Assembly: GCA_026707585.1 (NCBI GenBank)
Contig: JAPOWQ010000064.1
Coordinates: forward strand, 1-34,431
DNA: 34,431 bases
Direction: 5' to 3'
From: Chloroflexota bacterium
GTDB lineage: Bacteria; Chloroflexota; UBA11872
Positions 1 to 18,746 of this stretch are shown here, piece by piece (position 1 is the first letter of the stretch; the number at the start of each line of letters is the position of its first letter). The translations under genes were made by a program, and so were the position numbers. The notes beneath the pieces were generated by a model, which ran no database searches, had not been told where the DNA came from, and worked only from the letters and a program-made list of their open reading frames with translations.

Positions 1-375
1 CCATGCTAAACCCCGTAGGGCTCGGGACCATATCTCAGTCCCCGTGTGGCGGATCATCCTCTCAGACCCGCTACCGATCACTGCCTTGGTGAGCCATTAC
101 CCCACCAACTAGCTAATCGGCCGCAGCCCCCTCAGCCGGCGCCATGACAGGTTCCCCTGCCACAGCTTTCGTCCACCTGTCTACCAGGCGACCATATGCG
201 GGATTACCTCCGGTTTCCCGGAGTTTTCCCCCACCGACCGGTAGGTTAGCTACGTGTTACGCACCCGGACGCCACGGTCGTGGGCGCTCCGAAGAGCCTC
301 CCCGTACCGTTCGACTCGCATTGGTAAGGCACGCCGCCAACGTTCATCCTGAGCCAGGATCAAACTCGCCAATCC
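1..375 (-). rRNA. 16S ribosomal RNA, 5' portion (cut by left edge)
   Basis: Read on the minus strand, the segment begins near 375 with the conserved 5' end (GAGTTTGATCCTGGCTCAG, 367 downward). It continues through the usual landmarks: GAACGTTGGCGGCGTGCC, the CCGGGAAACCGG helix, TAGTTGGTGGGGTAA and GGTCTGAGAGGATGA. It leaves the window shortly after CCTACGGG, so about the first 375 of roughly 1500 nt are present. The 5' end is placed 8 nt before GAGTTTG by analogy with E. coli and is approximate. Two normally near-invariant stretches are altered: CTGAGACACGG reads CTGAGATATGG, and CCTACGGGAGGCAGCAG reads CCTACGGGGTTTAGCA. No tRNA or 23S gene lies on the 5' side; the 3' side is outside the window. 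Confidence 0.97.
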
Positions 376-767: not shown

Positions 768-873
768 CTCGTATCAAGATTGGTGGAGGGAGTCGGCCCA
801 ACGAAGCCGGGCAACCTTCGAGTGAACGCTCGAGAGGGTGCCAATTCCGGTAGCGGACGCTGCAAGATGCGAG
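768..873 (+). promoter_or_regulatory. SAM-I (S-box) riboswitch aptamer
   Basis: The segment matches the S-box consensus. P1 is a continuous 8-bp helix (768-775 with 866-873). Then come ATCAAGATTGGTGGAGGGA, the GGCCCAACGAAGCCGGGCAACC core, a P3 hairpin (TCGAG/CTCGA), the conserved GGTGCCAATTCC block, P4, and GCAAGATGCGAG closing P1. The family binds S-adenosylmethionine and normally turns off methionine or cysteine synthesis and uptake genes. It lies about 200 nt before the thrC-like start with no gene between, so it should control thrC and the following sulfur-carrier gene. Confidence 0.95.
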
Positions 874-17805: not shown

Positions 17806-18147
17806 CTATTCCTCGAAGGTGACGCTGGCGGCGTGGAGTTCGTCGGGGCAGGCGCGGTCGATGGGGACGGGGGTGGGGAGGTTGTTCTGCTGGATGTAGC
17901 CCTTGTCGGCCAGCCAGGCTTCCACTTCCTCGCCGCTGACGTCGGCCAGCATGCGGCCGTCCACGACCACGCAGGGTGAGAGCGGCTGGCCGCTCCGGGC
18001 GACCATCTCGTAGTAATTGGCCGCGTTGTTGATGATGTCCTTGTCCTCGTAGTCCAGGCTGTACTTGTCCATCACGGCGCGCACGCCGGCGCTCCAGCCA
18101 CAGACGGGCTTCAGGTAGGCGGTGATGGCGGGCTGTTCGGTTGTCAT
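17806..18147 (-). CDS. Glutaredoxin-like protein with CGWS active site
   Basis: 113 residues. The N-terminal thioredoxin-fold core is glutaredoxin-like: AITAYLKPVCGWSAGVRAVM, with a single active-site Cys16 in CGWS, then YEDKDIINN, a cis-Pro segment LSPCVVVDGRMLADVSGEE, and an extra C-terminal tail. CGWS with one Cys in the motif suggests monothiol chemistry or Fe-S handling; a second Cys precedes CVVV. I prefer the ATG at 18147; a GTG at 18156 would add three residues. It is transcribed divergently from the selenocysteine peroxiredoxin, 140 nt away, and is a natural candidate reductant for it (inference). Confidence 0.85.
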   Translation of the reverse strand: MTTEQPAITAYLKPVCGWSAGVRAVMDKYSLDYEDKDIINNAANYYEMVARSGQPLSPCVVVDGRMLADVSGEEVEAWLADKGYIQQNNLPTPVPIDRACPDELHAASVTFEE

Positions 18148-18287
18148 GGGATTCACTCTCGCACGGGAGAAACGGGCTTCCCGATTCTGGCAGACCGGAG
18201 CGGCGGCGGGAAGAGGAGCGGCCCGGAGTTGACCGGCGATTGAGGAGCCGCCACGCTGCGGGTGCCGCGCTGGAGAGGATGACCGGC

Positions 18288-18746
18288 ATGACGCGACTGA
18301 ACGTGGGCGACCGATTTCCCGAACTGACGGGGCGCTGGGACGACGGCCGACCGGCCCGCATACCGGACGAACTGGACACCGGGCCCGCGGTGCTCTTGTT
18401 CTACCGCGGCCACTGGTGATCGCATTGCCGGCGGCAGTTGGTCGCCTATAGCTACGTGCTGGACGCGTTCACCGCGCTGGGCGTGCAGGTGGTGGGACTG
18501 TCGGTCGATTCGGCAGCCGACGCCGCGGCGACGCGCGAACGTTTGCAGGTGGACGTACCGCTGGTGGGCGACCTGGCCTACCCGGACTCGGTGGACATCC
18601 TGGGGGGTTACCGGAACGAGGACCGGCAGTCGCACCAGGCCACGGCCTTTGTGCTGGACGCCGACCGCCGCGTTGAACACGCCGTGTACAGCGCCACCAA
18701 CGTCGGGCGCCTGATGCCCGAAGAAGTGCTGCGGATCCTCAGCTAA
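18288..18746 (+). CDS. Peroxiredoxin-like selenoprotein (in-frame UGA = Sec44)
   Basis: An AhpC/TSA-type redoxin of 152 residues if the in-frame TGA at 18417-18419 is read as selenocysteine. Upstream: LNVGDRFPELTG and AVLLFYRGHW. At the TGA homologues carry the catalytic Cys of GHWCPxCRRQL; here the order is GHW-U-SHCRRQL. Downstream the same frame continues through VQVVGLSVDS, VPLVGDLAYPDSV and TAFVLDADRRVEHAVYS to a normal stop. So Sec44 replaces the catalytic Cys and Cys47 is the likely resolving residue. A SECIS-like hairpin follows the TGA. The start at 18288 has GGAGAGG nine bases upstream; an ATG at 18279 touches that site. A TTGACC sequence at 18229 may be a -35. It should reduce peroxides with thiol partners. 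Confidence 0.9.
18417..18446 (+). promoter_or_regulatory. UGA(Sec) codon with bacterial SECIS-like hairpin
   Basis: From the TGA at 18417, 10 nt of spacer lead to a 6-bp stem, GGCGGC (18430-18435) with GTCGCC (18441-18446), closed by the five-base loop AGTTG. The loop lies 17-21 nt after the TGA and contains the GU pair that SelB contacts in bacterial SECIS elements. Size, distance and loop content fit the known requirement for Sec insertion. The hairpin lies within coding sequence, as bacterial SECIS elements do. Confidence 0.75.

Follow-up and report, generated by a model that had tools for sequence, protein, structure and literature searches.

Does an in-frame TGA codon within a redox gene of an uncultured Chloroflexota bacterium end translation, or is it read as selenocysteine (Sec)? 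The question is posed by a single forward-strand frame in the window (by which we mean the whole stretch of 34,431 nt that was analyzed; features are collected in Table 1): with TGA translated as a residue, the frame yields 152 residues with one internal TGA, in the context FYRGHW-U-SHCRRQL. A first-pass annotation, made from the letters alone, had proposed a peroxiredoxin whose catalytic Cys codon is UGA, and the coordinates, frame, and redoxin-like flanks that it gave for this TGA all hold. Our own reading, to which we assign a probability of roughly 0.9, is that this is a selenoprotein gene in which a SECIS element and SelB would direct Sec to position 44, with a product that is most likely a peroxiredoxin-like (Prx-like)/thioredoxin-like UxxC oxidoreductase. 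Gene finders that end every frame at TGA would cut the gene short or divide it in two across the genomes of this group, and a conserved redox enzyme would be missed.

Table 1. Positions of the features discussed, in window coordinates
Feature	Position	Strand	Remarks
Predicted Prx-like (AhpC/TSA fold) selenoprotein gene, 152 aa, U44-S-H-C47	18288..18746	+	TAA stop at 18744-18746
TGA codon, predicted Sec44	18417..18419	+	TGA in 18/18 close homologues; TGC/TGT in distant ones
Cys47 codon, TGC	18426..18428	+	Sole Cys of the protein; presumed resolving partner of Sec44
Shine-Dalgarno-like GGAGAGG, 5' of ATG 18288	18272..18278	+	From sequence; conserved in clade A
Bacterial SECIS upper stem-loop, GGCGGC-AGUUG-GUCGCC	18430..18446	+	-8.8 kcal/mol; starts 10 nt after TGA
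SECIS 5' stem, GGCGGC	18430..18435	+	
SECIS loop, AGUUG	18436..18440	+	
SECIS 3' stem, GUCGCC	18441..18446	+	
Glutaredoxin, 113 aa, CGWS motif, divergent from the selenoprotein gene	17806..18147	-	Pfam Glutaredoxin, E 2.4e-9
SAM riboswitch	768..873	+	
16S rRNA gene, 5' end, at window edge	1..375	-	

The frame encodes one continuous domain. A Pfam AhpC-TSA match runs across the TGA from residue 6 to residue 131 (E 6e-18; 65.4 bits against a cut-off of 26), and ATG 18288 is preferred as the start because the other in-frame ATG, at 18279, lacks conservation, homologues L015 and L051 having ATC there. Mechanical open reading frames of 92, 102, and 175 aa exist in this region, as would be expected if the two halves were separate short proteins or if the real gene were the antisense frame 18153-18680, but the single domain spans both halves, and three relatives (L048, L050, and L053) carry stops that interrupt the antisense frame; both proposals are refuted on these grounds, and we accord them next to no probability. 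The open frame is likewise all that speaks for genome-wide reassignment of UGA (e.g., to Trp) or for nonspecific read-through. Elsewhere in the window, TGA serves as a normal stop codon, terminating four of the nine genes checked, and it also ends most copies of the selenoprotein gene itself in one of the two clades described below (clade B); moreover, relatives carry Cys rather than Trp at the column in question, and the full Sec machinery is present. Stop usage thus refutes genome-wide recoding, which we regard as vanishingly improbable.

The TGA codon is conserved in a manner that a sporadic lesion would not be. It is kept in all 18 distinct close homologous coding sequences (12 in clade A, at 92 to 100% amino acid identity, and 6 in clade B, at 61 to 63%), which come from two genera and occupy one shared syntenic locus; the two clades look like orthologues, because the same neighbors flank the gene in both. 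A contig scan returned 11 close relatives from different Chloroflexota MAGs (92 to 97% amino acid identity), with TGA in 11/11, and 12 other loci (27 to 47% identity over the best segment), with TGC or TGT in 12/12. With 120 further whole genomes searched, the TGA form was present in all but one of the family's 19 genomes (18/19, counting the genome from which the window derives), including those of a second clade at 61 to 64% identity; the sole exception (G003) is 76% complete. In a phylum sample of 400 genomes, the strongest full-length matches outside the family (G363, G357, G322, G286, and G083) contain no internal stop. The alignment of homologues called for by the first-pass annotation therefore bears out the exchange of Cys and Sec at this column. 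One genome of the sister genus (G016) carries a clade A copy in addition to its clade B copy; the former sits on a 5.7-kb contig (L011/L050, C8, 5,690 bases) whose synteny is that of clade A, and it probably represents contamination introduced at binning.

A nonsense mutation in a pseudogene, or an assembly error for TGC or TGT, would require a change of only one base, and the hairpin beside the TGA is in itself not rare in this sequence; the same TGA, however, is shared by 18 distinct homologous sequences drawn from many different assemblies, distant relatives have Cys at exactly that column, and selection is not relaxed past the codon. Within clade A, dN/dS is 0.12 before the TGA and 0.07 after it, and within clade B, it is 0.17 before and 0.20 after; because these values are about as low downstream as upstream, the part after the TGA appears to be translated and selected. 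TGA conservation refutes pseudogenization and assembly error alike, leaving them a negligible probability.

Phylogenetic analysis places the 18 Sec sequences in one clade (SH-aLRT 100), whose neighbors are Cys sequences of Ktedonobacteria, Actinomycetota, and Thermomicrobia and which stands apart from other Sec-containing Prx-like proteins of Chloroflexota. Mapping the Sec/Cys state onto the tree gives three changes, at least two of which are forced by well-supported branches. The tree fits a Cys-to-Sec conversion, the direction of which depends on the rooting; most likely, an ancestral Cys gave way to Sec on the branch to this bacterial family. The other Chloroflexota Prx-like genes (L064, L065, L066, and L094), which form a separate Sec group, read DWU[PS]YC with TGA at the same column; at the position of the SECIS loop, AGTTG is also seen in L065 and L066, and AGCTC in L064.

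Decoding of UGA as Sec depends on dedicated machinery, and all four of the components whose presence the first-pass annotation had proposed to check (selA, selB, selC, and selD) were found in the same genome (3.9 Mb, 95.6% complete): tRNA-Sec, i.e., selC (71 bits, anticodon TCA [UCA]), selB (332 bits, covering the full model at positions 1 to 579), selA (508 bits), and selD (370 bits). SelB scores above the cut-off in all 19 family genomes examined, a test that does not discriminate among other genomes of the phylum, of which 97/121 pass. The selD gene (L041, C49:11963-12889) itself has an in-frame TGA, in the context GAGUACK, so that selenophosphate synthetase is, as in many bacteria, a predicted selenoprotein. 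With the machinery present, Cys and Sec exchanging at the column, and a conserved SECIS, the claim of a selenoprotein is upheld: that this uncultured Chloroflexota redox gene reads its internal UGA as selenocysteine is a well-supported prediction, having passed every selenoprotein test available in this computational analysis.

The hairpin downstream of the TGA has the geometry first ascribed to it, beginning after 10 nt and presenting an AGUUG loop at nucleotides 17 to 21. Published constraints on bacterial SECIS elements call for a loop of 3 to 9 nt, a stem of 4 to 16 bp, a G in the first two loop positions, a spacing of 16 to 37 nt, and a minimum free energy of at most -7.5 kcal/mol (PMC13188914); the element has a 5-nt loop, a 6-bp stem, G at loop position 2 followed by U, a spacing of 16 nt, and an energy of -8.8 kcal/mol. 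In an ungapped alignment, 6/6 pairs form in 18/18 copies around a loop of AGUU(G/A), and RNAalifold recovered the same helix unprompted, whereas slid pairings of the alignment fall to 7 to 57% paired. Compensatory variation is confined to two pairs and essentially contrasts two clades: clade A has G-C at pair 15-29 where clade B has C-G, and pair 18-26 occurs as G-U, A-U, or G-C among the 18 copies. Codon usage and substitution patterns at the element also count in its favor. Leu51, whose codon lies in the loop, is encoded by TTG or TTA in 18/18 copies; the usual Leu codon in seven window genes is CTG (197/288, with TTG at 24 and TTA at 1). Synonymous change in clade A is lower in codons 45 to 54 (pS of 0.107) than in the rest of the downstream part (0.222), and within both clades, these codons show about half the synonymous change of the rest, with no reduction between clades.

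The hairpin was offered in the first-pass annotation as an argument against chance, and this part of the case had to be recast. In this GC-rich window, a hairpin of at least 5 bp under a loose SECIS rule follows 465 of the 751 TGAs on both strands, and one as tight as the candidate (counting at least four G-C pairs) follows 37/751; as stand-alone proof, the hairpin is rejected, being too common after random TGAs. Because it is too common to carry the claim by itself, the claim rests on comparative evidence, and the combination of TGA retention in 18/18 copies, a Cys codon in distant homologues, paired substitutions in the stem, and the Sec machinery is far beyond chance. If bases 5' of the TGA are folded along with the element, the predicted structure of the window RNA shifts to another, longer hairpin that takes in the UGA (-18 kcal/mol). 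Clade B RNA folds into the SECIS as proposed, as does the window RNA once the ribosome-covered bases at the UGA are omitted, and the alternative hairpin burying the UGA would be unwound by a ribosome at that codon. Over longer stretches around the site, thermodynamic z-scores range from unremarkable to moderate, and an Rfam search at the site returned only a spurious mir-1497 match far below its cut-off.

What kind of protein the gene encodes is a separate matter. The AlphaFold2 model (pLDDT 93.7, pTM 0.90) finds its best solved match in Bcp4 of Sulfolobus (3hjp; Z 22.9, rmsd 1.7, 149/152 residues), followed by further peroxiredoxins at Z of 19 to 21, such that matches overall span Z of 19 to 23 with 142 to 150 residues aligned; the fold of the model is that of a peroxiredoxin. 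The active site departs from this pattern. In an HMM alignment to solved peroxiredoxins, the Thr of the PxxxTxxC motif falls at residue 44 and the peroxidatic Cys at Cys47, but here the motif reads RGHWUSHC, with Arg40 in place of Pro and Sec44 in place of Thr, and the catalytic Arg that precedes the strand following the active site is absent (the Arg column of 6q5v corresponds to Ala118). What the protein does have is a UxxC redox motif (U44-S-H-C47), whose Sec and Cys are the only selenol and thiol residues of the product. The earlier placement of the TGA at the catalytic Cys is thus correct with respect to the protein's own FYRGHWCPxC relatives, where it corresponds to the first Cys of CxxC, but not with respect to true peroxiredoxins, where that column is Thr and the peroxidatic Cys is Cys47. 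Similarly, the label "peroxiredoxin" is apt for the fold and the Pfam family but not for an active site with Sec at the Thr column and no catalytic Arg. We describe the protein as a Prx-like UxxC selenol/thiol oxidoreductase built on a peroxiredoxin fold, rather than as a canonical peroxiredoxin. A canonical peroxiredoxin of the TxxU type, with Sec standing in for the peroxidatic Cys, would share the fold and the AhpC-TSA family, and known TxxU peroxiredoxins are selenoproteins (PMC2398784); given the aligned positions of Thr and Cys at 44 and 47 and the substitutions at Arg40 and Ala118, we consider this reading unlikely. Because thioredoxin-like and Prx-like chemistry are not told apart by structure matches, the mechanism is argued from the motif alignment.

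The literature distinguishes two types of such selenoproteins, Prx proteins, which carry TxxU, and Prx-like proteins, which carry UxxC (PMC1088965; PMC2398784), and the protein described here belongs to the latter, a kind already established and known from marine metagenomes since 2005-2008. Published members (the Sargasso Sea "Prx-like protein," GOS "Prx-like 1," and the "Prx-like thiol:disulfide oxidoreductase," PF00578) share with it the pfam00578 domain, Sec as the first residue of UxxC, abundant Cys homologues, and a SECIS just downstream (PMC1088965, PMC2398784, PMC13188914). The FYRGHWUSHC subfamily, likened to the published members, including those from GOS and Geobacter, by domain and motif, was found in one Chloroflexota family, and among the Prx-like Sec forms sampled from this phylum, it stands by itself. 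Its Cys counterparts, the FYRGHWCPxC "peroxiredoxin-like" proteins of Ktedonobacteria, Actinomycetota, and Dehalococcoidia, have the same domain, a similar length, and an invariant FYRG-W-C/U-xx-C core at 27 to 39% identity, but contain CP[YF]C where the subfamily contains USHC. PrxU (TxxU) shares the AhpC/TSA fold and a Sec in the active-site loop, with a weak match to NF040737 far below cut-off; its Sec is the peroxidatic residue, whereas that of the present protein lies three residues earlier. Our search of the open-access literature found no paper describing this FYRGHWUSHC selenoprotein and none that treats selenoproteins in Chloroflexota associated with sponges. Three Chloroflexi selenoproteins are listed in a 2006 survey, and Chloroflexota go unmentioned in a 2026 review of prokaryotic selenoproteomes. 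For this phylum, the present case contributes a clear-cut exchange of Cys and Sec together with a SECIS that covaries.

Following established bacterial Sec biology, the SECIS hairpin after the UGA would recruit SelB with Sec-tRNA-Sec (made by SelA, with selenophosphate supplied by SelD), resulting in SelB-dependent insertion of Sec at residue 44. The Sec44 selenolate would then attack a peroxide or disulfide substrate (the substrate class being a guess), resolution by Cys47 would give a selenenylsulfide, and the enzyme would be re-reduced by a glutaredoxin or thioredoxin, again a guess. The glutaredoxin encoded next to the gene is, by its proximity, a plausible candidate for this reductant: at the same locus, it is 90 to 100% identical in clade A and 79 to 82% in clade B. 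The locus is ordered pheT-glutaredoxin (divergent)-selenoprotein-malate/lactate dehydrogenase-like-HpcH/HpaI aldolase, an arrangement that clade A preserves to the limits of its contigs, with the same neighbors in the available stretches of clade B. A more specific and decidedly speculative version has Sec44 at the catalytic-Thr site and Cys47 at the peroxidatic site forming the selenenylsulfide pair of a Sec-dependent peroxidase that is recycled by the adjacent divergent glutaredoxin.

The same genome contains a second predicted Sec redoxin (L045; C72:106367-106753, minus strand), which reads VFYRAFWUGTCRTQL and has a 7-bp hairpin (GCAACTC-GTG-GAGTTGC) just 3' of its TGA. Besides the Prx-like UxxC gene, this genome has one more UxxC redoxin as well as a SelD predicted to contain Sec. 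Matches with one TGA occur in most genomes of the family, and the sister genus (G013 to G018) has two to three further redoxin genes with TGA, partly adjacent to one another (e.g., G013:C11:506473-509611), which suggests that the family is rich in selenoproteins, with clustered Sec redoxins.
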